From IMG/VR virus record IMGVR_UViG_3300042695_002147, positions 1 through 40,734 of that record: a stretch of DNA of 40,734 nt. One strand, 5' to 3'. Of the stretch, positions 1-34,314 are shown one piece after another. The notes below the pieces were generated by a model, which did no database searches, had not been told where the DNA came from, and was given only the letters and a program-made list of their open reading frames with translations. The number at the start of each line of letters is the position of its first letter. The stretch's first letter is position 1. The DNA comes from a virus. A program made the translations under genes and the position numbers.

Positions 1-11
1 CCCTGCCCGTC

Positions 12-42
12 ATCCAAATCTTGGCGACAGCCAAGTTTGGAT
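12..42. repeat. Hairpin left of the tRNA-like segment
   Basis: A near-perfect inverted repeat: arms ATCCAAATCTTGGC and GCCAAGTTTGGAT around a GACA loop, with one bulged T. No T-run follows on either strand, so a classical terminator is not clear. It abuts the tRNA-Gly 3' fragment and may belong to the attachment region or end an operon lying left of the window. Confidence 0.5.
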
Positions 43-155
43 AGGTAAAAGATGGAGCGGGTGAAGAGATTCGAACTCTCGACCTCTTCCTTGGCAAGGA
101 AGACAGTCGAGAGTTAGATTCGAGGTGAGACTACCTTAACCTGCTGATTTACCTA
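42..155. repeat. 8-bp inverted repeat flanking the attP candidate
   Basis: TAGGTAAA at 42-49 is mirrored by TTTACCTA at 148-155, bracketing the tRNA-like segment. Inside it, a 9-bp pair (GTCGAGAGT on the minus strand in the T-arm region, and ACTCTCGAC on its other side, about 106-114) flanks the anticodon arm. Either pair could be protein-binding arms or allow cruciform extrusion. Confidence 0.45.
53..102 (-). other. attP: 3' half of tRNA-Gly(GCC): candidate attP core
   Basis: Read on the minus strand, this is a canonical tRNA 3' half: anticodon stem CTTCC/GGAAG with loop TTGCCAA (anticodon GCC), a variable loop, a T-arm with loop TTCGAAT, the 3' acceptor strand CACCCGC, discriminator T and encoded CCA. 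The expected 5' half (acceptor GCGGGTG and a D-arm) is absent upstream; the sequence there does not fold as a D-arm. A 3' tRNA fragment beside a tyrosine integrase is the usual form of a phage attachment site that rebuilds the host tRNA on integration. A divergent but functional tRNA is less likely. Confidence 0.65.
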
Positions 156-185
156 CCCTTATCACCTTCTCATTTTTCAAACATA

Positions 186-228
186 GGTCAAAAAAGGTCC
201 GTGGTCCAAAATGGTCCAAATTTTGACC
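186..228. repeat. Arm-type repeat cluster upstream of int
   Basis: Two tandem 10-bp copies, TGGTCCAAAA (202-211) and TGGTCCAAAT (212-221), with a further GGTCC at 196-200. The cluster is bracketed by the inverted pair GGTCAAAA (186-193) and TTTTGACC (221-228). Lying between the candidate attP core and int, they resemble integrase or excisionase arm-binding sites. The function is inferred. Confidence 0.5.
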
Positions 229-244
229 CGCAAAAATGCCCTAG

Positions 245-279
245 GGGAATGTTTGAGCGTTCGTCATAGCTCTTAAGTT
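245..279 (+). promoter_or_regulatory. Box promoter of int (variant GGGAATGTTTGAG, -10 TAAGTT)
   Basis: Box 245-257, 16-bp spacer, -10 hexamer TAAGTT at 274-279. The predicted start of transcription, about 7 bp further on, falls at the int ATG (287). The box contains the octamer ATGTTTGA (249-256), which is mirrored as TCAAACAT at 177-184. Confidence 0.6.
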
Positions 280-286
280 AGGAGGC

Positions 287-1405
287 ATGATGAAGCAAAA
301 AAACATCGTCGAGCGCACCACTGCTAATGGCGAAAAGCGGTATCGAGTGAGGGTAAGGCTTAAGGGGGTCTACGTGAGCAAGACATTTCGCTCTAAGGCC
401 CATGCCCAACAATGGCTCCAGAATCAGTCGAGGACCATCGGAGCATCGGCTGAACTTGGAATCCTGGATGACTCAGACTACAGCACAAAGACCGTCAAGG
501 ATGCTGTGGAGTCCTTCCGGACATTCAAGCTCCCTACCCTGACATCGGGGGAGAATAACCGGAGTCTGCTGGATGAGATTGTCAGGACCCTAGGAACCAA
601 GAAGCTTAACGACGTGGACCACGACGACGTGTTCCTGGCGGTAAGGGAATATCGTAGTGGGGGGAAAAGGGGTCGGTCTGAATCGTCGGCCAATAAGTTT
701 ATCAACCTCATCTCGTCGGTGTTCACCGAGGCAAGGCGAAAGAAGTGGACCAAGAACAAGCCCACCGAGTTTGTTAAGCGATACGATGAAGAGAGGTTTC
801 AGCGAACCAGGTCTCTCAGCAAGGAGGAGGAGGAAAGGCTTATTAAGGAGGCAGAGAAGAACATTTACCCAAACTCCGTAGTTTCAATCTGGTTGGCCCT
901 CCTCACCGGATACCGGAAGGACTGGATCCGCCATATGAAGTGGGACTACATCAACTTTGACAGGAGAATGATCCAGCTACCCTTGGGGAAGATTAACCCT
1001 CATGGAAAGACTGGTAAGAATACAGCTAAGGGTTTACCCATCGTTGAGAAGCTCTATCAAGAGTTGAAAAAGCATAGAGCCCTCTTGCGTGCAGCTGGCG
1101 TCAATAGTCCCTACCTGTTTCCTCAGGAGAGTAACGCTAATAAGGCTTGGGACATCATAGCTGCGTATAAGAGCGCAGTAAAAAGAGCTGGTATTGAGAA
1201 CTTAACGTTCCACGACCTTCGACATAGCGCGGCGACTAACCTGGTAATGAAGGGGATTCATCAGCGGATTATCGGAGAGATGCTTGGGCACAAGGACGCT
1301 AGGAGTACTCAGCGATATACCCATGTGCCAACTGAGCATATGAGAAATGAACTTGAGAAAGCCTTTTCCTATTCAAATGATGGAGGTGAAGATGAGACCG
1401 TGTAA
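287..1405 (+). CDS. int: Tyrosine recombinase / phage integrase
   Basis: A 372-residue site-specific recombinase, expected to integrate phage DNA into a host tRNA gene by strand exchange through a phosphotyrosine intermediate. It has an N-terminal arm-binding-like region (about 1-70, with YRVRVRLKGVYVSKTF), a core-binding region (about 70-170) and a catalytic domain. Catalytic residues are visible: R210 in TGYRKDW, H309/R312 in HDLRH, GH near 334, and the nucleophile Y344 in QRYTH. ATG 287 or 290 could start it; GGAGG at 281-285 is very close. The candidate attP lies just upstream and two excisionase-like genes follow. An integrase is unusual beside T4-type genes. Confidence 0.93.
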   Translation: MMKQKNIVERTTANGEKRYRVRVRLKGVYVSKTFRSKAHAQQWLQNQSRTIGASAELGILDDSDYSTKTVKDAVESFRTFKLPTLTSGENNRSLLDEIVRTLGTKKLNDVDHDDVFLAVREYRSGGKRGRSESSANKFINLISSVFTEARRKKWTKNKPTEFVKRYDEERFQRTRSLSKEEEERLIKEAEKNIYPNSVVSIWLALLTGYRKDWIRHMKWDYINFDRRMIQLPLGKINPHGKTGKNTAKGLPIVEKLYQELKKHRALLRAAGVNSPYLFPQESNANKAWDIIAAYKSAVKRAGIENLTFHDLRHSAATNLVMKGIHQRIIGEMLGHKDARSTQRYTHVPTEHMRNELEKAFSYSNDGGEDETV

Positions 1406-1616
1406 GTACCCAGACTACGTAAAAGCCCAAGACCTAGCAGATGAATTTGGAATAGAGCCATTGCTAGCCAAGGCAATGATTTACTTCCGGCAGATCAACG
1501 GCCTATGCGATGCGGGAGCTATTATGATTTTGCATGGCTCAAGGGTCATGATCCACAAGGAGAAGTTCCAGAACTGGATGGAACGAAAAAAGCTTCCAAA
1601 GAGCGTCATCTGGTAA
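1392..1616 (+). CDS. Small HTH protein, excisionase-like
   Basis: A 74-residue protein overlapping the end of int by 14 bp. The start at 1392 is chosen for the strong GGAGGTG ribosome-binding site at 1382-1388. The layout (KAQDLADEFGIEPLLAKAMIYFR, then a basic strand and HKEKFQNWMERKK) resembles the small winged-helix fold of Xis/AlpA-type DNA-binding proteins, which turn on excision or direct integrase. No family signature is decisive. Position within the int transcription unit is the best support for a recombination directionality role. Confidence 0.55.
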   Translation: MRPCKYPDYVKAQDLADEFGIEPLLAKAMIYFRQINGLCDAGAIMILHGSRVMIHKEKFQNWMERKKLPKSVIW

Positions 1617-1646
1617 TGTTGGAGCGATGATCGTAGTTGATAAATT
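1612..1646 (+). promoter_or_regulatory. Box promoter (GGTAATGTTGGAG, -10 TAAATT)
   Basis: Box 1612-1624 overlaps the stop codon of the upstream gene; 16-bp spacer; TAAATT at 1641-1646. It would drive the second excisionase-like gene (ATG 1679). Confidence 0.6.
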
Positions 1647-1678
1647 GAAACTCGACAGGATGAAACACCTGGAGGGTT

Positions 1679-1900
1679 ATGACAAACGACACCGCTACAA
1701 TATCCAATCTTCTAACACCAAAGCAGCTTGTGGAGCGTCATCGGTGGCTGACAATGGGTACTCTCAGGAAATACCTTTTTCACCGAATGTACAACGGTCT
1801 GGCTGAACAGAAAGTTGTCATTGCTCTATCTCAAAAGAAGCTTTTGATAGACGAAGCGCGGTTCATAAATTGGGTCAGATCTCATGGTCCCACCTGCTAA
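1679..1900 (+). CDS. Small HTH protein, excisionase-like
   Basis: A 73-residue protein with a clear GGAGG site five bases before the ATG. LTPKQLVERHRWLTMGTLRKYLFHR looks like the helix-turn-helix of an excisionase or helix-17-type domain, and DEARFINWVRSHG is a typical closing helix. The layout matches the preceding gene (HTH, then lysine-rich strand, then FxNW), so the two may be distant paralogues. It has its own box promoter and is closed by a terminator at 1912. A role in excision or in control of the integration module is inferred. Confidence 0.6.
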   Translation: MTNDTATISNLLTPKQLVERHRWLTMGTLRKYLFHRMYNGLAEQKVVIALSQKKLLIDEARFINWVRSHGPTC

Positions 1901-1911
1901 GACATTTAACT

Positions 1912-1940
1912 AGGCCCTCCTCGCGAGGGCCTTTTCATTT
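1912..1940 (+). terminator. Rho-independent terminator of the integration module
   Basis: Stem AGGCCCTC / GAGGGCCT around the loop CTCGC, followed by TTTTCATTT. Confidence 0.85.
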
Positions 1941-2934: not shown

Positions 2935-3198
2935 CTACTTCCCCTTGGTCGCTTTGTCTAACATCCGGGCTAGGTCATATTGGTCGAGTCCTAGCTTTTC
3001 AAACCACTCGGTAATGAGAGAGACCTTTAACTGATAAATGCCGCTGGTATACTGACGGTAGTACTGCCGAAGGATTCCTAGCTCCTTGGCGATTGCATAG
3101 TCAGTCATCCCCGTACGATCATTAAGCAGGTCGAAAAAGAGCACCTGATTGAATGAACCTTTGGGCTTAGTTTGACGTTTGCTCTTTTTCTTAATCAT
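2935..3198 (-). CDS. Small HTH regulator-like protein
   Basis: An 87-residue basic protein. DYAIAKELGILRQYYRQYTSG reads as a helix-turn-helix of the Cro/CI type (A-xx-LG-I.....YxSG), followed by a C-terminal helical part. It is the only plausible phage repressor or Cro-like gene in the window and sits near the integration module on the opposite strand, so a lysogeny role is possible but unproven. It is divergent from the gene at 3280. No Shine-Dalgarno sequence is seen before ATG 3198. Confidence 0.6.
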   Translation of the reverse strand: MIKKKSKRQTKPKGSFNQVLFFDLLNDRTGMTDYAIAKELGILRQYYRQYTSGIYQLKVSLITEWFEKLGLDQYDLARMLDKATKGK

Positions 3199-3989: not shown

Positions 3990-4637
3990 TCATTTCTGAC
4001 CAATCGATTTGATGAACTTCTGGTAAGCGTCAAAGCTAACCCGCTGTATTTGAGCGGCGGGCGCGGCTTCAATAGCTTTTTTGGTTTCTTCGACCACACG
4101 TGAGACCCAAGTTCCCTCAGCAGAAAGCACCCACTCCTTGTTCTCCATGACCGCTTGAACGAAAGCATCAGGCGCAGATGGGTTCATCACAACATCACCC
4201 GCCGTCACGAGAACGAAAGGAGTGCCGACTTCCTCATGTCCTTCAGTTGTTAAAGAGACGGATCCTACGGCCCGGGTAGAAACACCGAACTGAACTCCGC
4301 CTTTTAGTAATCCTCGCAAAACATTTCCCATCGGGGTGTCGAGCACGAGTGCTCTACCCACGTAGTTGTTTCCTTCGCGAGCCAAGGTAACAATTCGATG
4401 TGAGATGCGATCAATGTTGAGGTTTGGATTTGTTGGGTGGTCAGCTTCGCCTACCGCCTTACCCGTGTTCACTTGATTTTGGATATAATCCTCGATGATC
4501 GGAGCGATCTTTTGTGATGGGTAGAACCGGTTGTTCCGGTTAATGGTATCGAGCTGAATGAAGACTCCCTCAAAGTAGAGTTTGTTATCCTCTTCTTGTC
4601 TCTTCAATTCAAAATTGGCTTCTTGTAGTAGCTTCAT
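3990..4637 (-). CDS. 21: Prohead protease (T4 gp21-like)
   Basis: A 215-residue serine protease of the herpesvirus-assemblin-like fold that matures the prohead by cleaving scaffold, capsid protein and internal proteins after glutamate. LYFEGVFIQLDTINRNNRFYP matches the gp21 core. Candidate catalytic residues are H67 in GEADHP and S120 in GVSTRAVGS, matching T4 GELNHP and SSRGLGS. The start at 4637 is chosen by alignment to the family and by the late promoter upstream; an in-frame upstream extension would run through that promoter. It lies downstream of the portal gene with an opposite-strand gene between. Confidence 0.92.
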   Translation of the reverse strand: MKLLQEANFELKRQEEDNKLYFEGVFIQLDTINRNNRFYPSQKIAPIIEDYIQNQVNTGKAVGEADHPTNPNLNIDRISHRIVTLAREGNNYVGRALVLDTPMGNVLRGLLKGGVQFGVSTRAVGSVSLTTEGHEEVGTPFVLVTAGDVVMNPSAPDAFVQAVMENKEWVLSAEGTWVSRVVEETKKAIEAAPAAQIQRVSFDAYQKFIKSIGQK

Positions 4638-4666
4638 AGCGATATAGAGGTCAGTCTGTTTCCCTC

Positions 4667-4674
4667 TATTTATA
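4667..4674 (-). promoter_or_regulatory. Late promoter TATAAATA of gp21
   Basis: Exact T4 late consensus on the minus strand, giving a leader of about 24 nt before ATG 4637. It is back-to-back with the plus-strand late promoter at 4697. Confidence 0.8.
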
Positions 4675-4696
4675 GCCCTGGGATTTGGGGTGGTCC

Positions 4697-4704
4697 GATA
4701 AATA
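4697..4704 (+). promoter_or_regulatory. Late promoter GATAAATA, leaderless
   Basis: It ends 5 bp before ATG 4710, and no Shine-Dalgarno sequence fits in the gap. It is divergent from the gp21 late promoter 23 bp away. Confidence 0.7.
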
Positions 4705-4709
4705 GCTTG

Positions 4710-5519
4710 ATGGCAAAGCGTCAATACCCCATCGAGATACGGGACGTAGCTCCTGGGCCTGGAGCCGTCAGAATGACCGGAAAAACGGTTATTGGAGGCT
4801 TAGACGGTCTGCATACAGGTGGCGCATGGCTCTACCAGAACAAGGTCTGGAAGCCCTTAGACGGCAGGCCTTATCAAAATGCTCAGTTTCATATCGAGAC
4901 GGATGAGGAAGCCTGCCTTAAAGCTCTTCAAGGAAAACCCCTATTCCCAAAGAACTGGGAAATTGCAGAAGCCAACGGGCGACGATTTACCGTAAGAGAC
5001 AAGGTGCAGACCTTTCCTGGAGGAGGATTAACCCTCAACGCTTCTCAAGTGCAGGAAATCGAAAAGGGCATTAGGGAGATGAACAGATCTGGATGGGCAG
5101 TAAATGACAACCTTGTCATCGGACGCGATGGCTCAGGGCGGCTCTTCATCGTTGACCTTTCAAACGCGTCGCACTCGACCCAGACGGGAATCCATAAACC
5201 GGACGACGGGTTCTTCTTAGATGAGCTAATGAAACAGGCTGGCTTTGGTGAGATAGTCAAATTAAAGAAGCTCGCTCAAGAGATGCGAGGTTTAATGATT
5301 TTCAATAAAGCTTTTAGTAAGTACTCAAGCTACCGCTGGATCTACTCATCGAAACAGAAGAGTGAGATTACGGGAACTGTTGATGTCACGGCGATGGCAA
5401 GTGAACTTAACGCCGTTGATAGTGGGGTTGCTCGCCAATTTTCTTGGTATGCAAGCAAGTCCGAGCTTCAGCAATCTGTAGTTCGGTCAAAGGGACTAAC
5501 GCTGAGAGTAGCGGGATAG
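4710..5519 (+). CDS. Late protein, possible kinase-like fold
   Basis: A 269-residue protein inserted on the opposite strand between the portal and protease genes and read from a late promoter. It is not firmly recognised. AWLYQNKVWKPLDGRPYQNAQ and GWAVNDNLVIGRDGSGRLFIVDLSNAS are laid out like a protein-kinase catalytic loop and metal-binding segment (NxxNLVI...LFIVDLS), with a preceding helix. The canonical HRD and DFG motifs are not intact, so it may be a degenerate or divergent kinase-like virion protein. The C-terminal about 80 residues are helical and basic. It converges on gp20, four bases apart, with a GATAGCG/CGCTATC hairpin at the junction. Confidence 0.75.
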   Translation: MAKRQYPIEIRDVAPGPGAVRMTGKTVIGGLDGLHTGGAWLYQNKVWKPLDGRPYQNAQFHIETDEEACLKALQGKPLFPKNWEIAEANGRRFTVRDKVQTFPGGGLTLNASQVQEIEKGIREMNRSGWAVNDNLVIGRDGSGRLFIVDLSNASHSTQTGIHKPDDGFFLDELMKQAGFGEIVKLKKLAQEMRGLMIFNKAFSKYSSYRWIYSSKQKSEITGTVDVTAMASELNAVDSGVARQFSWYASKSELQQSVVRSKGLTLRVAG

Positions 5520-5523
5520 CGAC

Positions 5524-7200
5524 CTACTCTCCGCTATCGACTGGAAATGTCTCAGAGCCTGGAACAGGTTCCTGGGGATCAACTGGCTCACTTTGAGGAG
5601 CCCCACCGAGAGGTTGTCCTGTCATTGGATCTATTTGCATCCCGGTAGCTGGGTCCACAATAGGAGGCGGTATAATCTCACCTCGGGCCATCTCCTCCTG
5701 AATCTCAGATTGCATCTTTAGCTGCTCATCATCGGTCATCTTAAAGATGTGCTGTTTGATCCACTTGTTTGACAAATATTTTCCAACAAACCCCTGAGCC
5801 TCGGCCGCGAGAGCCATTCGACTTGTATAGACCGTTGCCTCGGACATCTCTGAATAGTAGTTGTCAGATGCAAACTTGTACTTCCAGTTACTGAGAAGAT
5901 ATTCCATATCAGCTTCGTCCTGAACTATACCTTTCAGTCGAAGTTGAGTGGCTAAAAGAGTGTCGAACAAGCTTGAGAACTGCTTTCTCAACCGATGAAT
6001 CATCTTTGCAAACTGACGCTCATCGCGAGACACCATTCCCGTATTTCCAAACAACGCCACTGCATCTTGCTCCAGGCGGGATGGAGGAACATTCAATGCT
6101 CGAAGGAGCTGTTTGTTGAAGTAGTCAATTGTGCTCGTGTCGTCAAAGCCTGCCCCGCCGGGGATAGCATCAACTTGAACGGACTCTCCTGAGCTAGGTA
6201 CCGGAATGAAGATGTCGTCGATGATGGACATTACCTTGCGCTCATCGACCACGTCGCCGGTGATTGCATCGAAGGCTGTCTTTGTGCGGTATTGAGCCAC
6301 AATTTGATCAAGATAGTGACTGACTTGCTTTTCCGGCATCTGCCCGGTTGGTATTCTCCACACTCTTCGCTCTGGCGCTCGGGCAACCTTATAGATGAGG
6401 GTGGCGTTCTCCATGCTCTTCAACTGAGACATGGGCCGAATAGCTTTATGTAGGTACGAGAGGATAACTGAGCTGGTAGAATCGAAGATGCCCGAGTGAA
6501 CAAAGGCAATCGAATCCCTTGTGAGCTTTACTCCATTTATGATTGGATTCTTCCCAAATGGGACGACCGCCGTGCCGTTGTAATCAATTCCAAACGGAGC
6601 ATAGACAAAGTACTCATTTACAATGTCCGTGTACTCAATCTGAGTGGCTGGGTCTATCCGTTTGTCGACCTCAATGAACTTCCTTATTTGACGAGGGTCA
6701 ATGTAGCGAAGCTCCTTTATACCCATGCGAGGGTCTTGATGGGGAAGGATCTGATAGAACAACCTTCCATCAGTGTAATAATTTCGGAAGAGCTGATAAG
6801 ACTCATTGGTCCAGTTAAGGAGTTTGAGTACATTTTCAAACTCATCCGTGAGGATTTTCTTAACTTCATCTGGAATCTGCTCGCAATCCGTAAGGTCAAG
6901 CTCAACAGCCGAGTGTTCGCCGTCTTGTACAATACACTCATTGGTAATCTCATTGATTGCCCAGTCCACTAAAGGATGTAACGACAGATCGCGATATCGG
7001 GTAATGAGTTGGTACTCTGTCAGCTGTCCGTCAATCTTGGTCTGAGAGTTCCCGAGGTACCCGAATTGGTTGGGTGCGCCAATTACCACACTCCCATCGT
7101 TTGGATTTGGGGGCACAGGAGACGACAGCTTTGCCTCCGAATCGCGCCGGAACGCAAAGCCGAACAGCCGAGAGATTAAGAAAGATCGTGTTTGTGCCAT
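5524..7200 (-). CDS. 20: Portal vertex protein (T4 gp20-like)
   Basis: A 558-residue portal protein forming the dodecameric head vertex for DNA packaging and tail joining. Family landmarks include YRDLSLHPLVDWAINEITNECIV near the N-terminus, FRNYYTDGRLFYQ, ELRYIDPRQIRK, a central YLHKAIRPMSQLKSMENATLIY helix, and LNVPPSRLEQDA with FGNTGMVSRDERQFAKMIHRLRKQFS. The C-terminus is a Pro/Gly/Glu-rich tail. Length is close to T4 gp20 (524). A late promoter lies about 29 bp upstream and no strong Shine-Dalgarno sequence precedes ATG 7200. Confidence 0.95.
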   Translation of the reverse strand: MAQTRSFLISRLFGFAFRRDSEAKLSSPVPPNPNDGSVVIGAPNQFGYLGNSQTKIDGQLTEYQLITRYRDLSLHPLVDWAINEITNECIVQDGEHSAVELDLTDCEQIPDEVKKILTDEFENVLKLLNWTNESYQLFRNYYTDGRLFYQILPHQDPRMGIKELRYIDPRQIRKFIEVDKRIDPATQIEYTDIVNEYFVYAPFGIDYNGTAVVPFGKNPIINGVKLTRDSIAFVHSGIFDSTSSVILSYLHKAIRPMSQLKSMENATLIYKVARAPERRVWRIPTGQMPEKQVSHYLDQIVAQYRTKTAFDAITGDVVDERKVMSIIDDIFIPVPSSGESVQVDAIPGGAGFDDTSTIDYFNKQLLRALNVPPSRLEQDAVALFGNTGMVSRDERQFAKMIHRLRKQFSSLFDTLLATQLRLKGIVQDEADMEYLLSNWKYKFASDNYYSEMSEATVYTSRMALAAEAQGFVGKYLSNKWIKQHIFKMTDDEQLKMQSEIQEEMARGEIIPPPIVDPATGMQIDPMTGQPLGGAPQSEPVDPQEPVPGSETFPVDSGE

Positions 7201-7228
7201 GGTATGAGCTTTGTCTAAATCTGCCCTG

Positions 7229-7236
7229 TATTTATA
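7229..7236 (-). promoter_or_regulatory. Late promoter TATAAATA of gp20
   Basis: Exact T4 late consensus on the minus strand, 28 bp upstream of the portal gene ATG. Confidence 0.8.
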
Positions 7237-7333
7237 TCTCCGAAACCGATGTTATCTGGGGAAAGCCCTCCCCCAACATTCACCAACCAGCATAAAACGT
7301 CTCAAAAACACCTCAAGCTAGAGTTGAAGGCTG

Positions 7334-7346
7334 ACGATAGTATCGT
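7334..7346. repeat. Palindrome ACGATA-G-TATCGT
   Basis: A perfect 6-bp-arm palindrome in the 170-bp gap between the divergent portal gene and the small gene at 7373. It may be an operator for the plus-strand gene. Confidence 0.35.
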
Positions 7347-7372
7347 AATGGGCAGAAATTAGAGGTGGCTGT

Positions 7373-7624
7373 ATGAGTAAAATTCTTAGTGGGGTCGAGC
7401 TGGGTAATGCAATTCGGGAGACTAACGCTCAAAAAGGCTATCCCATCCATCCCTTATGTGACCTTTCCGGGTCATATGTATCATTCAGGGTTCTCAAACC
7501 GGTCGGCTCTTTCCGCCAGAAGGGCCCTTACCTCGAAAATCCCCATAAGCTCCTTAAGGAGCTTAGGACCCTTCCCGACAGGCCAACGAAAGGGCTCCTG
7601 GGGCTCTTAGTGCGATTCTTTTAA
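7373..7624 (+). CDS. Unknown small protein, 83 residues
   Basis: Not recognised. ATG 7373 has GAGGTGG at 7362-7368. The product is basic, Pro/Leu/Gly-rich (KPVGSFRQKGPYLENPHKLLKELRTLPDRP) and has no membrane segment. It overlaps the stop of the convergent metzincin gene by four bases and contains a perfect 20-bp palindrome. No promoter of either phage class was found, so expression is less certain than for its neighbours. Confidence 0.5.
   Translation: MSKILSGVELGNAIRETNAQKGYPIHPLCDLSGSYVSFRVLKPVGSFRQKGPYLENPHKLLKELRTLPDRPTKGLLGLLVRFF
7546..7565. repeat. Perfect 20-bp palindrome
   Basis: TAAGCTCCTTAAGGAGCTTA, two perfect 10-bp arms, inside the small gene at 7373. No T-run follows, so it is not a standard terminator. 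It could be a recognition site for a dimeric protein or endonuclease. Confidence 0.5.
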
Positions 7625-8430
7625 ATGCACATCAAGGCGCTACTTTCAAAAACAGCGGCTTCCTTGTTCATTACGAGCGCCTGTGTGGAGACCTTTGGAC
7701 GACTTGCCCGGTATTTACGAACAAGGTCGAGGTGAGCCTTTATTTGGGCAAGGCTGTAGTGGCTATACTCATCAGAATACTGATTAACGCAAGCACACGG
7801 ATGCATAATGCCCTCGTCTACGTGCTCGGCTCCCAGGACGTGCCCAATCTCATGAATAAGGACTCTGGTCATAAACTTCTCACCTCCCATCACCTTTGCT
7901 AGTAAAGCCGACGGGCGAGCTCCTAAGACTCCAATGCCAGAGGCAAGGCCAATCATGCCTTCTTGCTCAAAGTTAAAGGTGTCGATGTTGTCGGGATGGT
8001 CTTCAAGCAGAACCACTGTAAGGTCATTCTGAGCTGCGCCCAAATTAGAGGCGATTTCAAACCACTGCATCCAGCGCTCTTCAATTGTCCCTACCGGCTG
8101 TTTATCGGTAACGTACACCTTTGCGATTCGAAATTTCACATCTAGTCGCTTTTCCAAGTAGCTAATAGCCAGTTTAAGGGGACGGATTCCCCTGTCGCAC
8201 TGTACGTGCCCACCGCAGACCACAGAAACTGTAAAGATGACTTTTTCGGCTGGTGATGACGAGTCCTTAACCTCAGCGGGCGTCTGATTGAGTGGCGTCA
8301 TTCGGAAATTGGACGCTTGCGGCAGCTGAGTGACAGCACCTACAACCAGCAACAGGACAGACAGGATAATCCCAACAACTCTAAGTTTAGTCAGGAGCGA
8401 ATACTTCTCGGCTTTCCTTTTGGACTTCAT
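7621..8430 (-). CDS. Membrane-anchored metzincin-type zinc protease
   Basis: A 269-residue protein with a basic N-terminus and a hydrophobic segment at about 17-35 (VVGIILSVLLLVVGAV), a signal anchor or signal peptide. The catalytic motif HEIGHVLGAEH at 193-203 (H193, E194, H197, H203) is the extended HExxHxxGxxH zinc site of metzincins, and GIMHP just after gives a Met-turn. This predicts a secreted or envelope-facing endopeptidase. It sits between the portal and capsid genes with its own late-type promoter 5 bp from the ATG, so it is expected late. Possible roles are lysis, envelope remodelling, or a factor made in lysogens. Confidence 0.88.
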   Translation of the reverse strand: MKSKRKAEKYSLLTKLRVVGIILSVLLLVVGAVTQLPQASNFRMTPLNQTPAEVKDSSSPAEKVIFTVSVVCGGHVQCDRGIRPLKLAISYLEKRLDVKFRIAKVYVTDKQPVGTIEERWMQWFEIASNLGAAQNDLTVVLLEDHPDNIDTFNFEQEGMIGLASGIGVLGARPSALLAKVMGGEKFMTRVLIHEIGHVLGAEHVDEGIMHPCACVNQYSDEYSHYSLAQIKAHLDLVRKYRASRPKVSTQALVMNKEAAVFESSALMCI

Positions 8431-8435
8431 CTACA

Positions 8436-8443
8436 TATTTAGC
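8436..8443 (-). promoter_or_regulatory. Late promoter GCTAAATA, leaderless
   Basis: Minus-strand element ending 5 bp before the metzincin ATG 8430 (gap TGTAG). No room for a Shine-Dalgarno sequence. Confidence 0.55.
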
Positions 8444-8479
8444 TGCGTCGATTCGGAGAAGGAGTCAGAACATGGCAAT

Positions 8480-8503
8480 AAAAAAGGGGAGCCGAAGCTC
8501 CCC
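8480..8503 (-). terminator. Strong terminator after the capsid gene
   Basis: On the minus strand GGGGAGC TTCG GCTCCCC is followed by TTTTTT: a UUCG tetraloop and a perfect 7-bp GC-rich stem, right after the gp23 gene. Confidence 0.92.
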
Positions 8504-8531
8504 TTTTCCGTTTGTTATCGATAATTCTCGA

Positions 8532-9842
8532 TTAGAGAAGATTCTTGATCTTGAACTTTCTATACCAAACGTTGCTGTTTGCAGTGAACGCGCCAGTGCT
8601 GTTTCCTGCAAGGTTTCCGAAAGGCGACTCAACGCAACCATACCTAGTCTTGAAAGCAAGACTTGGCTGGTAACTCTTCGGATCAGTAGCTTGGAACATC
8701 TGAAGCGGAGTATATGGAGCGTAGAAGAATCCAGCATCCATTGGGCTTGGCCCCTTGTACCCTACTACAGCGAAGTTCACGTTTGCTGGAATATATGGAT
8801 CAGCGTAAACCTTCCATCGTCCCATCAATGTACCAACATAGGTACGTCCGCTCTCCTCAACACCGATGTCAACCTTAAGAGCGTCTGTGCAATCAAGGAG
8901 CTTAGCCATCGAAAGAGCGGCAGCAGTGTTGCTGTCGCAGATAACGATGTTACCAATTCCACGACGAGTCTCGCGAGCAATTGCGTTAGACTCACGAGCA
9001 AGTTGGATGATAAGTCCAACGTACTTCTCAGCATGGAATCGTCCGTCAGCATCTTGATTAAGGTCGAACTCACCTGGAGTTGCGAGGCCCTCATCCTGAC
9101 ATCCTACCTTAGCGATGTGGTAGATGGTACGGATGACTTCACGGTTAATCTCACTGAGAAGCTCAGTTGCAACGATCTCAGCAAGCTCTTTCTGAGCATC
9201 AAGGCCGTGTACAGCCATGAGGTCTTGCATAAGCTCATGTGTGTACGATGCACGCAACGCACGAGTCTTAGCCTCAACTGGGATACGGTCGATGCTAAGA
9301 GACATCTCAGGCATATCTGGGGACGATCCGCCAGTTCCAAGAGCCTCACCAGCAGCGGTCGTAAGACCGGTTCCGCGAGAGAAACCTACATCGAATGGAT
9401 CAACTGTCGTCGAGTGGGTTCCGGCTCCTGTGAAGTCGGTGTCTGCCTCATTGTGAAGAGCCTCAGTTCCACCCTGGCTCGTGTACTTCGCCTTAAGAGC
9501 AAAGATGAACGAGTTTGGCGCCGACATTGGCTGAACGCCTGCTACGTCAAATGCCATCATGTACGGCAAAGAACGTCGAAGCATGGTCATAAGAGGAACA
9601 GTGAATCCCTTAAGATTTGGATTCTCTGGGAAAGCCCCTGCACTGTTAGCAGCAGCATCCTCGGTAATGAACTTGCTGTTAAAGTCGCGATAAACAGCGT
9701 TGGTCTTGATATCCTGTAATTGGTTCTCCAGGAGGCAAGCGATTACTCTCTCTTTATACTCGTTGAGTTTAGGGAAAGCCTGGTGGCGCAATACGCCCTT
9801 CCAGCTCTCTACGAGTACCCTAGAAGTGTCATTCTTAATCAT
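8532..9842 (-). CDS. 23: Major capsid protein (T4 gp23-like)
   Basis: A 436-residue capsid protein that assembles around the gp22 scaffold and is cleaved by gp21. ATG 9842 is chosen because AGGAG lies eight bases upstream; an in-frame TTG six bases earlier is not needed. Family landmarks: SAGAFPENPNLKGFTVPLMTMLRRSLPYMMAFDVAGVQPM, KTRALRASYTHELMQDL, IVICDSNTAAALSMA, YKGPSPMDAGFFYAPYTPLQM. The segment SKFITEDAAA offers a gp21-type cleavage site (after E61), matching the position of the T4 cut near residue 65. A late promoter overlaps the end of gp22, and a strong terminator follows. Confidence 0.96.
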   Translation of the reverse strand: MIKNDTSRVLVESWKGVLRHQAFPKLNEYKERVIACLLENQLQDIKTNAVYRDFNSKFITEDAAANSAGAFPENPNLKGFTVPLMTMLRRSLPYMMAFDVAGVQPMSAPNSFIFALKAKYTSQGGTEALHNEADTDFTGAGTHSTTVDPFDVGFSRGTGLTTAAGEALGTGGSSPDMPEMSLSIDRIPVEAKTRALRASYTHELMQDLMAVHGLDAQKELAEIVATELLSEINREVIRTIYHIAKVGCQDEGLATPGEFDLNQDADGRFHAEKYVGLIIQLARESNAIARETRRGIGNIVICDSNTAAALSMAKLLDCTDALKVDIGVEESGRTYVGTLMGRWKVYADPYIPANVNFAVVGYKGPSPMDAGFFYAPYTPLQMFQATDPKSYQPSLAFKTRYGCVESPFGNLAGNSTGAFTANSNVWYRKFKIKNLL

Positions 9843-9877
9843 TTTCAAAACTCCTATCCTTTGGTGGAAGTTAAAAT

Positions 9878-11182
9878 CTATTTATTATTCTCGGAGGCCG
9901 CCGGGATTAAATTCGCAATTAAATCTGCTTCAGAACGAACTGTAACAGCGGCGTTGCGAATACCTCCCTGAAGAGCCAGGTTTTCATTGGTAGCTCGAAT
10001 ACCCTCAGTTTTCTTCGCTTTTGGCATGAAGGACGCCCTCATAACCTGAACGTTTTCTCTGAACGTATCCAAATCCTCGGCCTTAATCTTGGCGACCACG
10101 GCCTTGAAATTCTCAATTTCGGTCAGTGGGAGCCCCTTTGCGGCTTCTTCGATTACGAGAGCGCGGTCACGAAGAGAAACCTCTCTAACCAACGCTGCGT
10201 TCTCGGAAACCATCTTGTTTGACTGGTCCTCCAACTTTGCGATCTTTTGCTCGTACATCTTTACGAGAGATGCAGTCGCATCTACTGTCTCGATATCGAA
10301 CGTTTCAACAAGAGTTCGAACACTCTCGAAAATCTTTTGCGCCACCTTTACCTGGGTAGCAGTGAAAAGCTTTGGCTCATTCTCTTTACGCCATGTCTCC
10401 ACGACGTACTCAAGATAATGGCTTACTTGCTCGTTGAGTTTTGCCTCACGTGCTGATGTGATAGCTTGGAACTTATCGCTGAGTTTTTCCTCTGCAAGCT
10501 TAACCGCAGTGGCAACACGGGCTTTTACTGCGCTCTCAACCGACTCATCAAAGAGTCTCTTAACAACGCACTTTTGCTCATCGGAAAGATCCTCTGAACC
10601 AGGAAGCTCCGGCTCTGCCTCAACATTCTCATCTTCACCGTCAGCTTTGAGGGCGGCATTTGCTTTTGCAACGATATCCGAAATCTCTTCTTCAGTAAGA
10701 GATGCGGTGTCCACATCGTTATAGCCCGCTTCCTTTTCATCCTCTTCGGCGTCGACCTCGGCTTTATCCTCCTCATCGGAGTCTTCAGCTTCGGGCTCTT
10801 CCTCGGATTCGCCCATCAGGCGGATGATTTCAGCAATCTCTGGATCGAGGTCGTCCGCCACTTCGTCACCGGAAACCTCAGCATCTGCGGGAAGATCTCC
10901 CCTCCCGGATCCTGCTGTCGGAGCAGATGTGGGGGCTGCTGGATCTGCGATTGGAGCGCCAGAAGCGGCCATAAGGTCAGCCTCTGGAAGGAGTGTTTTG
11001 CCCATCGGCTCATCAAGTTCCTCAACCTCATCGTCAAGAACAGATTTAACTTCCTCCGGATCGACGGCTCGGTTAGCCTCGGCACCTGGCTGCTTAGCTG
11101 GTTCACTGCTTGCGACTGCCGCCGATGGGTCAATGTCGGATTCACGAAGCAAATCTAACAGCTCGCTTACCTTTGTACTCAT
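9878..11182 (-). CDS. 22: Prohead core scaffold protein (T4 gp22-like)
   Basis: A 434-residue highly acidic scaffold that shapes the prohead and is degraded by gp21. The N-terminal part (about 20-185) is a low-complexity Asp/Glu/Ala/Pro region. The C-terminal part is helical and coiled-coil-like (VKARVATAVKLAEEKLSDKFQ, HYLEYVVETWRKENEPKL, SLVKMYEQKIAKLEDQSNKM), matching the gp22 core with its LDHLAKEWLAENK-type segment. It is much longer than T4 gp22 (269), mainly through the acidic N-terminal extension. The ribosome-binding region ATAGGAGTTTT is almost identical to that of gp23, suggesting matched translation of scaffold and capsid. Confidence 0.9.
   Translation of the reverse strand: MSTKVSELLDLLRESDIDPSAAVASSEPAKQPGAEANRAVDPEEVKSVLDDEVEELDEPMGKTLLPEADLMAASGAPIADPAAPTSAPTAGSGRGDLPADAEVSGDEVADDLDPEIAEIIRLMGESEEEPEAEDSDEEDKAEVDAEEDEKEAGYNDVDTASLTEEEISDIVAKANAALKADGEDENVEAEPELPGSEDLSDEQKCVVKRLFDESVESAVKARVATAVKLAEEKLSDKFQAITSAREAKLNEQVSHYLEYVVETWRKENEPKLFTATQVKVAQKIFESVRTLVETFDIETVDATASLVKMYEQKIAKLEDQSNKMVSENAALVREVSLRDRALVIEEAAKGLPLTEIENFKAVVAKIKAEDLDTFRENVQVMRASFMPKAKKTEGIRATNENLALQGGIRNAAVTVRSEADLIANLIPAASENNK
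9879..9886 (-). promoter_or_regulatory. Late promoter AATAAATA of gp23
   Basis: Minus-strand element adjoining the gp22 stop codon, with a leader of about 30 nt that carries AGGAG before ATG 9842. Confidence 0.7.
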
Positions 11183-15489: not shown

Positions 15490-15705
15490 CTATGCTGCGC
15501 TTGCTTCTCCGGACGAAGTTGCTTCGTCCTCATCCTCGGCACTTGTGGGTGTACCACGAGTGTTAGACGGGGCCACTGAATCACCAGTACCGACCAGACG
15601 AGCCACTTCTCGCCCGTACTTTGTAATAATTACGTCACCCGATTGGGCTTGTGAGAGATAAGACTCAAGATTGCGTCGAAGCTCAGTGAGTGTCACTGTA
15701 TTCAT
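15490..15705 (-). CDS. Phd/YefM-type antitoxin-like protein, no toxin
   Basis: A 71-residue protein. MNTVTLTELRRNLESYLSQAQ followed by SGDVIITKYGREVARLV is a typical Phd/YefM antitoxin N-terminal domain that binds DNA as a dimer. The C-terminal 30 residues are Ser/Thr/Glu/Asp-rich and disordered-looking, where a toxin-binding helix would normally lie. The start at 15705 is supported by GAGGA upstream. It is a single-gene unit with its own box promoter and terminator and no adjacent toxin. It may neutralise a host toxin-antitoxin system or act as a repressor. Confidence 0.85.
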   Translation of the reverse strand: MNTVTLTELRRNLESYLSQAQSGDVIITKYGREVARLVGTGDSVAPSNTRGTPTSAEDEDEATSSGEASAA

Positions 15706-15746
15706 AAGATCCTCTACAAAACGTTTATAACGGTTTCGATGCTGCA

Positions 15747-15781
15747 ATGTTCACATAGTAATGGGTGAGCCGAGCATTACC
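15747..15781 (-). promoter_or_regulatory. Box promoter (GGTAATGCTCGGC, weak -10 GAACAT)
   Basis: Minus strand: consensus box 15781-15769; the hexamer at the standard 16-bp spacing is GAACAT. A better-looking TACTAT lies 8 bp from the box but breaks the family spacing. Confidence 0.6.
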
Positions 15782-23771: not shown

Positions 23772-24724
23772 GCAAACTCACAGTTGCTCATGACTTCAGT
23801 AAGGGCCGAAAGAAGGCATATCCCCTTATCTACCACCCTTATTGCCTTATCTTGATGGTCATTGAGGATTATAACCAACGCCGGTTTACTCTTGTTATCC
23901 ACCAGCGGCTCCAGGGCTTTGTACAATTTGCCGTATACCTCTGGCTTGATGTTTGTCTGGGAGAACACCCAATTACGCAGAGAGGTCCAGCTCTTGCTTT
24001 TAAGAAAGCCTGCCACCTCATCGAAATTGTTGTCTCTATAAACGGCAAGCACCCCCGGATTTATCTCCCCATAGGCTTTGGCATAACCCTGAAGCAAATT
24101 AAGGATATGCCTAATGTCCGGGAAGAACTCCTTTACGATACCAACCAGCACCTCTTTGTCGAATTTTACGCCTTCAGACTGGAGAACGGTCTGGAGCCTT
24201 ACGAAGGTTGCCTTCATAAGGTCCTTCCTCTCCTCCTGCAATAGGGCATTAAAGTCAATCTTGGTGCATCGTGAGTGGATTGCATCAATAATTTTGCTTG
24301 GATGGTTGCACGTTAATACGAATCCACACAGATTGGAGTACTCCTCCATAAATGTCCGAAGGGCTGGCTGAACGTGCATCGAGAGGTTATCTGCCTCATC
24401 GAAAATTATCACCTTTCGCTTGTTAGACAGAATTGACTGAGTAGACGCAAACTTTTGAATATTGTTCCTTAGCGCGTCTATTCCCGACTCCGTGCCCCCA
24501 ATAGATGCATTGAGGATCATAAAATCGAGATCAAGCTCCGAACATATGCACTTGGCTAATGTAGTCTTTCCGAGTCCTGAGGTTCCAATCAGAAGCAAAT
24601 TGGGCACTTCACCGGTCTCAAGGATTGTACCTACCAGCTTCTTTACGTAGCTTGGCAAAATACAATCCTCTACCCGAGACGGGCGATATTTCTCCGCCCA
24701 AATGACATGCTCTAATGAAGCCAT
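23768..24724 (-). CDS. 44: Clamp loader ATPase (T4 gp44-like)
   Basis: A 318-residue AAA+ ATPase (T4 gp44 319). WAEKYRPSRVEDCILP is the standard loader start; Walker A GTSGLGKTT at 47-55, Walker B VIIFDEADNL (about 107-113), sensor 1 VLTCNHPSKI, SRC motif HSRCTKIDF (about 150-155) with the arginine finger. The C-terminal collar domain is helical. It follows gp45 by 17 bp and overlaps gp62. Confidence 0.96.
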   Translation of the reverse strand: MASLEHVIWAEKYRPSRVEDCILPSYVKKLVGTILETGEVPNLLLIGTSGLGKTTLAKCICSELDLDFMILNASIGGTESGIDALRNNIQKFASTQSILSNKRKVIIFDEADNLSMHVQPALRTFMEEYSNLCGFVLTCNHPSKIIDAIHSRCTKIDFNALLQEERKDLMKATFVRLQTVLQSEGVKFDKEVLVGIVKEFFPDIRHILNLLQGYAKAYGEINPGVLAVYRDNNFDEVAGFLKSKSWTSLRNWVFSQTNIKPEVYGKLYKALEPLVDNKSKPALVIILNDHQDKAIRVVDKGICLLSALTEVMSNCEFA

Positions 24725-25461: not shown

Positions 25462-27468
25462 CAGCGAAGCCGAGGTGAAATTATTTCGCTTCTGAAAGTG
25501 AAGGGTTTGGTCAAAGTTCTCACTGAGGCCGTCTTTGTGGGAAATGATAAAGATATTAAAGGATTGGAAGTCATCACCTTTCAACAGACTTAAAATGGTC
25601 TCTGTCGTCCCTTGGTCGAGATAAGAATCAAGGACTTCGTCCAGAATGAGAAGGTTTGTGTTAACTGCAGATTGAGCCTGTGCTAAATGCCTCCAGGCAA
25701 GCAAAACTGCCAAGTCTAGGCGCTGTCGCTCTCCCTCTGAGTAGTTAGCATAAGAAAGGACGTCCCGATGGCGAGACCTTATTGTATCGTTGAACTCCTC
25801 ATCTAGTTCAAATGATACAAACATTCCCATTTTTGTAAGATACTGATTGATGTATCTGTTGAGTGTTGGAACGTAGCGCTTGAGGATCTCAGACTTAACT
25901 CCATCGTCCTTGATGATGACTTGGGCTTCTCGAAGTAACTTGACCTTCTTTGCTGTATAGTCAATGTCAGATTCCAAAGAACTGACTTCTTCTCCTAGGC
26001 GCAAGATTTCCCCGCTATTGTCCAAGAGCGGCTTACTCTTCTTCTCCTCGATTGCTTCCTTCAAAAGCTTTGCCTCGGTTAAAAGAGCTGTCACCTCCAA
26101 TTTCTTATCTTCAAGGGCCTTTCGCTTGGTAACAAGGCCAGCTTCGAAATCCTTTTTCTTTCTTTCGACAAGCTCTTGCGCTGAGCGTACTTTCTCTTCG
26201 TGCGCCCTGAGACGGGCCTCAAATGCACGTCTCTTATCTTCAAACGCACGGCGCCGCTCTTCATATGCGCTTTTGCGGCTATTGAAATCCGCCTTTCGAG
26301 CCATAAACAGCTCGCGAGCTTCCGTGTATTCTTTCTTTCGCCTCTGGACCTCTTCAGCCTTGACCTTAATACTATCTATAACCTTGGTAGCGGCAGCAAC
26401 AAGCGACTCTAGTTGCACCTTTTCCTGCTCCAGTTCATCGGTGGATTTCCTCTTGAACTCATCGTCTATCGGTTGAGAACAGGTCGGGCACTCGTGGTGC
26501 TCAGCATAGAAGTTCAGGTGCTTGGAGTTGTGTTCGAGCTTCTCTTTGGATGACTTAATTTCGGCAAGCTTGGTCGCCCTCTCGCTGACAAGCTCTGAAA
26601 CATCAAAAGCAGCCGGATCCTGCTCTTCAAATGTCTCATTGAACTCTTCGGAAAACTCTTCAGTAAATGTAAGATTAAATATCTCGGTGAAGTCTGGGAC
26701 CTCTACGTTTGCATCGAATGATTCGACCAACATCTCCAGTTCTTGCTCTTTGCAAAGAATCTCTTGGTCCAGGTCCTTTTTCCTGTCGCGCAAACCTACG
26801 AGCTTTTTAGTAAGAGTGGCGACCTCTTCCTTTGTCTTTTCTTCAAATGATTTCTGCTGTTGTTCCAGGTACTGAACCTGTTGCGCAAGGGTGTTGCGCC
26901 TGTCTGTCATTCCCTTATATTTCAGCGTCTCATCGGAAATCTTGGTTTTGACGACTGCGTTCATCGTCGAGAACACATCAATCCCGAGGATGTTTTCCAC
27001 CATTTTCTTCCGCTCGCCTGGCTTTAGCCTCATGAACGGGGTGTAATTTGCGGCACCAAGCATCACAACATGGGTGAATATCTTCCAGTTCATTTTGAGA
27101 ATCTGGTCTTCGAGGCACTTTTGCTGGTCCTTTGTATGTGAGTCTTGATTCAGGGCCGTCCCATTCAGAAGGATTTCAAAGACGTTAGGCTTAAGACCTC
27201 GTCGAATTTGATATCGGTCGCTCCCTATCGAAAAGGTCAGCTCAACTAAGAGGTCTTTCCCATTGATTGAATTGATAAGTTCCGTCTTATTGATATCGCG
27301 AAAGGCGCGACCAAACAACGCAAAGGACAACGCGTCCAGGAATAGGCTCTTCCCAGAGCCTGACGGACCACTTAAGGCAGTGAGACGATGAGTGGACAAA
27401 TCCATAACTAATGGAGCCTGACCGACCGAAAGAATGTTCCTATATGTGATGCTCTCGAATTTGATCAT
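25444..27468 (-). CDS. 46: Recombination endonuclease subunit (T4 gp46, Rad50/SbcC-like)
   Basis: A 674-residue SMC-like ATPase that with gp47 resects DNA ends for recombination-dependent replication. Walker A GPSGSGKSLF (about 34-42); long coiled coils with a zinc hook CPTC (about 326-329, HHECPTCSQPI); signature YSEGERQRLDLAVLLAW (about 574) and Walker B NLLILDEVLDSYLD (about 606). It is longer than T4 gp46 (560), mainly in the coiled coils, where Glu/Lys/Arg-rich repeats such as KSAYEERRRAFEDKRRAFEA stand out. ATGA overlap with gp47. Confidence 0.95.
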   Translation of the reverse strand: MIKFESITYRNILSVGQAPLVMDLSTHRLTALSGPSGSGKSLFLDALSFALFGRAFRDINKTELINSINGKDLLVELTFSIGSDRYQIRRGLKPNVFEILLNGTALNQDSHTKDQQKCLEDQILKMNWKIFTHVVMLGAANYTPFMRLKPGERKKMVENILGIDVFSTMNAVVKTKISDETLKYKGMTDRRNTLAQQVQYLEQQQKSFEEKTKEEVATLTKKLVGLRDRKKDLDQEILCKEQELEMLVESFDANVEVPDFTEIFNLTFTEEFSEEFNETFEEQDPAAFDVSELVSERATKLAEIKSSKEKLEHNSKHLNFYAEHHECPTCSQPIDDEFKRKSTDELEQEKVQLESLVAAATKVIDSIKVKAEEVQRRKKEYTEARELFMARKADFNSRKSAYEERRRAFEDKRRAFEARLRAHEEKVRSAQELVERKKKDFEAGLVTKRKALEDKKLEVTALLTEAKLLKEAIEEKKSKPLLDNSGEILRLGEEVSSLESDIDYTAKKVKLLREAQVIIKDDGVKSEILKRYVPTLNRYINQYLTKMGMFVSFELDEEFNDTIRSRHRDVLSYANYSEGERQRLDLAVLLAWRHLAQAQSAVNTNLLILDEVLDSYLDQGTTETILSLLKGDDFQSFNIFIISHKDGLSENFDQTLHFQKRNNFTSASLGNARH

Positions 27469-28511
27469 TCGCTGATATCGTGCAAGTTCAACGCCTCATG
27501 ATACAGTTCGCGAAGAATCCCCTTTAACTCTGCTTTGGGACTCTCGAAGTCAAGCGAATCAACATACAGATCCATTAGAGAAAACAGATCCATACCTTCG
27601 TCAGCTTTGGTCTCCAGTCTACTAATTGATGCCTGCTCACTAACATTTACCTCAGAAGGATTCTTAGATTCGATTGCCTCAAGGAACTGTAGGAAGCCAC
27701 TTTCGCTGCTCTTTTGCTTAATCAGAACTCTGACAATCTTGTCTTTACACTCAGGGATGGAACTTATGTCGGAGTCTGCATAATCGATATGAACAAAGGG
27801 ATTGCTAGGGTTCTCGATGAAATTGAGCCTTAGATTGGTCATGTCGATCACATGAAACCCCCGACTATCAAATGCCTCGGCCCACATTGTTGCGACCGGA
27901 GATCCAAGATAATCGATGTTCTTCTGATGACTTTTCAGGTGGAAATGCCCGGATAGAACCCTTTTGAATTTAGAAAGGATGCCGGGGTCAATACCCTTAT
28001 CTGGATTCTCTATACCTCTAAACATCGGACAACCGATGATTTCTAGGTGGCCCAGAACCAAATCCGCCTGCGACTCCTCAAGAGCTTCATTTGCCTGAAT
28101 TTTATTCTCCTCACATATCCAGGGAAGCATGAGCGTTTGAACGCCATATAGATTTAGCTCTTGTGGCTGAGCATAGAACCTAAAGCTGTCGTAACGGCCG
28201 AGGAACTTCTCAGGCGTGTTGACCGAGTTTGTGTTCTTGAAATAGGTATCGTGATTACCAATAATGATATGCGTCTGTTCAAAGACTTCATCCCATTTTG
28301 CAAAGACTCGACGATCCCACTCGTAGATGACAAAGTTGTTGGTATCTTTGCGACGATCAAAGATATCACCTAGATGAATCATGTGCTTAATATTGTGTTC
28401 TTTGACGTAAGGAAAGAACACTTCCTCAAAGAAGCGGATCTGATGATTCATGAACACCGGAGAGTTGTTGCGAACTCCAGCATGTGTGTCCGCCAGGATT
28501 GCAACCTTCAC
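27465..28511 (-). CDS. 47: Recombination nuclease subunit (T4 gp47, Mre11/SbcD-like)
   Basis: A 348-residue metallophosphoesterase nuclease (T4 gp47 339). Metal-binding motifs in order: ADTHAG (D8, H10), HLGDIFDRRKDTN (about 47), IIGNHDTYFK (about 91), VLGHLEI and GHFHLKSH (about 192). It pairs with gp46. It starts four bases after the gp55 gene and overlaps gp46 by four. Confidence 0.95.
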   Translation of the reverse strand: MKVAILADTHAGVRNNSPVFMNHQIRFFEEVFFPYVKEHNIKHMIHLGDIFDRRKDTNNFVIYEWDRRVFAKWDEVFEQTHIIIGNHDTYFKNTNSVNTPEKFLGRYDSFRFYAQPQELNLYGVQTLMLPWICEENKIQANEALEESQADLVLGHLEIIGCPMFRGIENPDKGIDPGILSKFKRVLSGHFHLKSHQKNIDYLGSPVATMWAEAFDSRGFHVIDMTNLRLNFIENPSNPFVHIDYADSDISSIPECKDKIVRVLIKQKSSESGFLQFLEAIESKNPSEVNVSEQASISRLETKADEGMDLFSLMDLYVDSLDFESPKAELKGILRELYHEALNLHDISE

Positions 28512-33596: not shown

Positions 33597-34215
33597 GCCC
33601 AACAATCTCCACCCAGCGCATTAGGTCTTCACGGGTGAAGTGTATCTTCGGCTACCCCAAATCCGGGATTATTTCACATTTTAGGTTGGATTGGTGACTG
33701 TAGACCTTTCCATCCTACCCTTTCTTCCTCTTAAACTTGGTTATTTCAGATTTGGATTGATGATTGGTCGGTCTGGCATCCCTTTACCCTGGTTTTGTTG
33801 ACATGAAATGTTTGAATCTTTGGTACTATAAAAGCAGGAGATAAGATGATGTGCATATGATCACTATACACATGCAGTGTCTGATTAGTGATTGTGTGAT
33901 TCACATGTCACATGGAACCCTATACAGACCTCCCTACTCTCTATTCAAATAGACCTAAAGACAGTTAAAGGATCGAAAGGTGTCCAGGTCTCATCACACT
34001 GTTCACTCCACAATAAGGATCGGTCTAATAGGGATCCCTCATATTGATGTGTGTAAAACTCGTAGAAGAAGGTTGGCGTAGACAACCTAGAAGAGCCAAC
34101 ACTCAATATTCGGTTGAATGAAATAGAGATAACCCACTAATACCCTTCTGTGTTGAGAGTGGGTAGTTCCCACTTCCTCCTTAATAGTTCATACGGACCT
34201 TGGTCTGTCGTCCTG

Positions 34216-34250
34216 GGTAATGTTTGAGCTATGTCTGAATCAAGTAACCT
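34216..34250 (+). promoter_or_regulatory. Box promoter (GGTAATGTTTGAG, -10 TAACCT)
   Basis: Box 34216-34228, 16-bp spacer, TAACCT at 34245-34250. Same box variant as the int promoter, including ATGTTTGA (34220-34227). Confidence 0.65.
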
Positions 34251-34278
34251 CACAATACGCTCGCTTCTTTGTGTGAAG

Positions 34279-34286
34279 TGTAAATA
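34279..34286 (+). promoter_or_regulatory. Late promoter TGTAAATA
   Basis: 28 bp before ATG 34315, downstream of the box promoter, so the gene may have tandem promoters. Confidence 0.4.
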
Positions 34287-34314
34287 GGAGCAGCGCACTC
34301 GTTAGAGGTACTGA

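Follow-up and report, generated by a model that had tools for sequence, protein, structure and literature searches.

The window, the whole stretch of 40,734 bases analyzed here (IMG/VR record IMGVR_UViG_3300042695_002147, linear and probably a fragment), probably carries the site-specific integration module of a deep-branching T4-type phage lineage. In this reading, held with moderate confidence, the window is the integrated state and the larger IMG/VR contig G001 (IMGVR_UViG_3300042555_002918, 145,388 bases) the free attP state. That the lineage is competent to integrate is likely. T4-type phages rank with the most abundant viruses, and ecological work, life-style predictors and therapy all take them to be obligately lytic; such a module matters because they are regarded as strictly lytic. 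A lineage combining the complete T4 core with an inherited integration module and an apparent junction would demonstrate that integration is compatible with the T4 programme; the integrase, the att core and the regulators are offered as loci for testing how such a phage restrains host-DNA breakdown and late-sigma control.

The carrier of the integrase is a genuine T4-type phage. Positions 52–40734 of the window were 100% identical to G001 103827–144509 across 40,683 bases, and a third contig (3300042695_002253, L027) belongs to the same phage. Both termini of G001 matched a single tail-fiber gene of a relative represented by contigs G003 and G004, which were identical where they overlapped and encoded a gp23 89% identical to that of the window, suggesting that G001 is a nearly complete, circularly permuted genome. 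The region containing both ends of G001 corresponds in the window to a tail-fiber-like ORF with many coiled-coil repeats (38720–40734, +). Comparison of the G001 ORFs with HTVC008M recovered the T4-type virion core (gp17, 18, 19, 20, 21, 22, 23, 13–15 and baseplate genes), with matches to terminase, sheath, tube, portal, protease, scaffold, capsid, neck and baseplate proteins. The replication and recombination core was also present (gp41, 43, 44, 45, 46, 47, 32, 59 and 61), including DNA polymerase, clamp and clamp loader, helicase, primase, gp32, gp59 and gp46/47, together with uvsX, uvsY, uvsW, RNaseH and the late sigma factor gp55. The context given in the preliminary description, an integration module near gp20–gp23, a T4 replisome and gp55, is confirmed.

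Capsid, tail, baseplate, replication and late-sigma genes were homologous to those of the group formed by HTVC008M, Melnitz and the cyanomyoviruses (Kyanoviridae and kin), from which the phage differed in its own gp23 branch, its permuted head-gene order and its integrase module. Its gp23 was 44–48% identical to those of isolates of this group, and in the gp23 tree the lineage occupied a long branch of its own (1.65 changes per column) within a group that excludes T4 itself. On the minus strand of the window the head genes were ordered gp22-gp23-protease-gp20-gp21, whereas T4 and HTVC008M have the order 20-21-22-23, which is typical of T4-type phages and not defining. This permuted block spans 3990–11182 (−), with the integration module immediately past gp21. 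Between gp20 and gp23 it holds a secreted, HExxH-type metalloprotease-like ORF (7621–8430, −) that was 47% conserved in the relative; other proteases in G001 were a subtilase with a TP-rich tail (26248–27960, −) and a reprolysin-like protein (56964–58253, +).

The integrase ORF was intact, and its product had the features of a tyrosine-recombinase integrase, i.e., catalytic R, H-x-x-R, H and Y within PF00589 and an N-terminal arm- and core-binding part. Residues R210, H309, R312, H335 and Y344 aligned with the catalytic positions of XerC-like and XerD chains in the PDB alignments, and all five were invariant in the integrase of the relative. Pfam, PHROG, the PDB alignments and the relative bear out the full-length tyrosine integrase with R210, H309, R312 and Y344 proposed earlier, and its residues suggest that it would be catalytically active. 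A second tyrosine recombinase, with 192 aa and a catalytic domain only (PF00589 3e-21), was encoded at G001 24103–24681 (+; L012 4103–4678).

Table 1. Features at the left end of the window, with coordinates in the window.
Feature	Position	Strand	Basis
Phage-foreign sequence, candidate host DNA lying 3' of the target tRNA gene	1–51		No alignment to G001
Attachment core, 3' half of tRNA-Gly(GCC), anticodon stem to encoded CCA	52–102	−	tRNA 3' end at 53
Dyad left arm (T-arm of the tRNA), candidate core-type integrase site	68–83		14/16 inverted match to 106–121
Anticodon loop TTGGCAA, probable 7-bp crossover (overlap) region	91–97		Dyad center and inner end of tRNA identity
Dyad right arm, phage side, not tRNA-derived	106–121		Inverted match to 68–83
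Two tandem arm-type repeats, TGGTCCAAAA / TGGTCCAAAT	202–221 (202–211, 212–221)	+	Third copy left of the core in G001
Tyrosine integrase, 372 aa	287–1405	+	PF00589 3e-27; PHROG integrase 1.5e-53; PDB Xer alignments; alignment with the relative
Small DNA-binding-like protein	1392–1616	+	Weak similarity (26%) to the counterpart, in the relative, of the next gene (1679–1900)
Predicted winged-helix protein, candidate excisionase, 73 aa	1679–1900	+	63–64% conserved in the relative, there next to a different integrase
Terminator-like hairpin with T run, ends the module	1912–1932	+	L016 5687–5707
Short Cro/CI-type HTH protein, possible regulator, 87 aa	2935–3198	−	PF01381 4.7e-5, just above cut-off

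As in tRNA-targeting modules, the attP core consisted of the 3' part of a tRNA gene beside the integrase gene, and its sequence was the same in the window, G001 and L027. A partial tRNA match was obtained over the core with cmscan, at a score under the Rfam cut-off, and according to ARAGORN neither the window nor the 145-kb G001 contains a complete tRNA. The T-arm of the tRNA half forms a dyad with the phage side of the core, for which the runner-up inverted match of the 16-mer in 40.5 kb reached 12/16; because the right arm lies outside the tRNA, the symmetry belongs to the phage site. It would fit core-type integrase binding with a crossover in the anticodon loop. In G001 the arm-type repeat occurred at 103693, 103977 and 103987, the first of these copies lying beyond the core and being visible in G001 only, so that arm-type sites flank the core on both sides. 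Three copies of such a 10-mer appeared in 2 of 40 dinucleotide shuffles, which makes the repeats weak evidence alone; what stands of the arm-type sites first described is the two-sided geometry, which recurs in the relative with another repeat. The att regions of G001 and G004 shared one plan, with one or two repeat copies left of the core and, about 275–285 bases rightward, a tandem pair, at spacings of 284/10 in G001 (TGGTCCAAAA) and 274/11 in G004 (TGTGCCATTTTT). No tRNA was found in the att region of the relative.

The window and G001 part company at 51/52, one base past the CCA end of the tRNA, with nothing in common to the left and 40 kb of identity to the right. In the window the order is 51 unrelated bases, core and phage; in G001 phage DNA lies on either side of the core. 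The left part of L027 was identical to G001, with phage DNA left of the core, and this contig stopped 14 bases past the core. Precisely at the 3' terminus of the tRNA half, the same phage DNA thus meets two partners, phage DNA (attP) in one case and 51 foreign bases, which hold a 13-bp hairpin (z −3.1), in the other. The left end of the window has the form expected of an integration junction next to attP, which supports the earlier proposal of the tRNA-Gly(GCC) 3' half as attP; a break is unlikely to have fallen by chance so close, at one or two bases, to where the tRNA ends. The foreign bases would then be host chromosome, and this flank suggests that a matching attB exists.

In the proposed mechanism, the integrase would bind the arm-type repeats on either side of the core and carry out strand exchange within a tRNA-Gly(GCC) gene, at its anticodon loop. 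With the 3' half supplied by the phage core, the target tRNA would be rebuilt at one end of the insert, and the 3' half originally belonging to the target would be displaced to the other. With a crossover in the anticodon loop, integration would form the junction seen in the window, in which 53 to about 91 would be the target's tRNA, identical to the phage copy. The window most likely captures the integrated state at its left end (foreign DNA, core, integrase side), and G001 would be the free attP state. The winged-helix protein probably directs excision.

The integration module is an established trait of the lineage. A whole-record search detected PF00589 in three of three lineage records but in 0 of 19 T4-type contigs or isolates from outside the lineage, the compared records of the HTVC008M, Melnitz and cyanomyovirus group included. 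At this position the relative had another tyrosine integrase, sharing 32% identity. Upstream of the module, the two phages shared a PHROG-644 gene (74% identical) and a small gene (32%); downstream, the winged-helix gene was followed by an endonuclease-like gene (81%), then by small genes and gp21. Core genes were 60–89% identical, compared with the 32% of the integrase, and by these identities the module has evidently been swapped or is fast-diverging. It has persisted or been renewed while the two phages diverged to about 70% DNA identity. No lineage members with gp23 identity between 50% and 89% were found in IMG/VR. Between the integration module and the next conserved gene, the window carried an HNH endonuclease (2006–2599, +; PHROG 6.9e-34) absent from that place in the relative.

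Two excisionase-like genes had been proposed downstream of the integrase. Neither matched a Pfam family, and the second (1679–1900) also matched none in PHROG or NCBIfam. Its product was nonetheless predicted, with moderate confidence (pLDDT 77), to be a helix-turn-helix with a wing; its PDB matches were all non-significant winged helices, and among those listed Tn916 Xis had the best probability (0.54) and TM (0.51/0.60). A role as excisionase is plausible, not proven. Candidate regulators were found further away. An HTH-DUF5753 regulator (G001 34142–34972) lies beside a DUF6879 protein, the pair spanning G001 34145–35654 (−; L012 14145–15654), and G001 also encoded an ECF sigma factor; with the second recombinase, these are candidates for lysogeny control and not evidence for lysogeny. 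The HTH-DUF5753 gene and the HTH_3 gene at 2935–3198, which had no counterpart at that place in the relative, are candidate repressors only. The HTH-DUF5753/DUF6879 pair, here in a T4-type phage, is otherwise seen in Streptomyces, its plasmids and phages.

Whether integration leads to lysogeny is a separate matter. That the lineage is truly temperate, with a 145-kb prophage in a tRNA-Gly gene, regulators silencing the T4 programme and integrases swapped among members, as other temperate phages likewise swap theirs, is a tentative proposal that falls short of even chances. Somewhat less probable is a lytic phage that integrates occasionally without lysogeny and retains the module for another benefit. 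This has a direct precedent in the T7-like cyanophages with an integrase and a tRNA-Leu attP, in which experiments demonstrated integration and yielded no stable lysogens (PMC8776855), and it agrees with the presence of all the T4-type genes for replication and late transcription and with the lack of a proven immunity repressor. The candidate repressors and the persistence or renewal of the module across the divergence of the two phages speak against it.

Like the phage of the window, the T7-like cyanophages P-SSP7 and S-TIP37 are of a classically lytic type and have a tyrosine integrase and an attP formed by part of a tRNA gene (PMC8776855); they differ in being T7-like podoviruses with a host tRNA-Leu, whereas the window phage is T4-type with tRNA-Gly. 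The module also resembles the tRNA-targeting phage integrase systems that have a lambda-type integrase, arm sites and a core in the anticodon loop, and shares with them an Int bearing an arm-binding N terminus, bilateral arm sites, a core with a tRNA 3' half and a small winged-helix gene downstream. Unlike these systems, it lies within a 145-kb T4-type genome and has an excisionase candidate only. A literature phrase search for temperate T4-like phages returned no match, and the text of a comparison of 26 T4-like phage genomes does not discuss integrases (PMC3037559). Kyanoviridae are given as 24.3% of family-assigned marine proviruses in one survey (PMC10533544), a figure not counted as evidence here because the passage reporting it gives no integration junctions.

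The left end of the window could also be an assembly chimera at a tRNA-Gly segment shared with a host or another phage, the phage never having been integrated in the sample. This is a serious alternative, if an unlikely one. A metagenomic contig can carry an assembly error in its outermost 51 bases, the join falls at a 51-bp shared sequence of the short kind that gives false joins, L027 likewise ends near the core, and other T4-type phages have near-identical tRNA-Gly genes. Against this, a short-read assembler whose word length exceeds 51 bases would end its contig at such a repeat instead of joining across it, and a chimera would still require a second replicon with a tRNA-Gly exactly matching the core to its 3' end, which is itself a valid target. 

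Searches for the partner of the presumed integration junction covered bacterial and viral sequences. As an exact pattern, the 51-base flank was absent from the contigs of GTDB 220 and from viral contigs. When as many as three mismatches were allowed, the tRNA half had 0 matches in about 780 sampled genomes of four phyla (398 Pseudomonadota, 145 Verrucomicrobiota, 121 Chloroflexota and 119 Actinomycetota, the phyla of the Robiginitomaculum, Verrucomicrobia, Chloroflexi and Actinomycetes records, respectively) and was absent from 18 single genomes; the intact copy of 53–102 that the preliminary description proposed seeking in host tRNA genes was not among them. The target may be an atypical tRNA gene, or a tRNA gene on another phage or a plasmid. 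The search for prophages with gp23 homologues, also proposed there, revealed none of this lineage: a gp23 scan of bacterial genome contigs gave 49 distant T4-type loci, mostly in MAGs, none above 49% identity and none with the window integrase. The other junction, attL, was not found. The HTH-DUF5753/DUF6879 pair hinted at Actinomycetota as host, and no claim is made because its identity was 24–29% only and the tRNA test failed in that phylum.

The closest matches to window 53–102 were the tRNA-Gly(GCC) 3' halves of the T4-type phages DLP_6 (98%) and DSS3_MAL1 (94%), closer than any sampled host. They would agree with a mere remnant of a phage-encoded tRNA-Gly gene, the integrase targeting something else or nothing, a reading that is quite improbable. 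In DLP_6 and DSS3_MAL1 the genes are complete and lie inside tRNA clusters, unlike the half in the window phage, with no integrase beside them in the stretches read. Decay would not end exactly at the anticodon stem with a perfect 3' end kept, and the half sits centrally among arm-type repeats, beside an integrase and in a dyad with a non-tRNA side; two assemblies change partner precisely at its end, and G001 has no other tRNA. The preliminary description had counted against its own reading the lack of any host match combined with a complete tRNA here in related phages. No sampled host matched and near-identical complete genes exist in other T4-type phages, but these are not at this place and not in this lineage. 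Insertion of an element into a tRNA-Gly gene of this phage genome itself was rejected: G001 has no intact tRNA and no second copy of the core.

The last alternative, an ordinary lytic T4-type phage with a recent, single integrase capture, is the least probable and already disfavored: the integrase has a high third-position G+C (60.9% vs. 50.3 ± 5.0%) and the other T4-type records lack one, but a second member has its module at the same syntenic place with the partner gene 63% conserved, and both integrases have about the G+C of their own genomes (49.7 vs. 47.7% in the window phage, 39.2 vs. 38.6% in the relative). Between the two origins first put forward, a temperate lineage is better supported than recent acquisition, because both known members hold the module between the same flanking genes and because of this match in G+C, although no prophage, host, attL or proven repressor was found. 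Two further elements were noted in the phage. A Phd/YefM-type antitoxin-like ORF (window 15490–15747, −) had no obvious toxin alongside, and a CyVA-1 RNA motif was present at G001 45791–45868 (−; L013 5791–5868), scoring 42.3 bits against an Rfam cut-off of 41.4.
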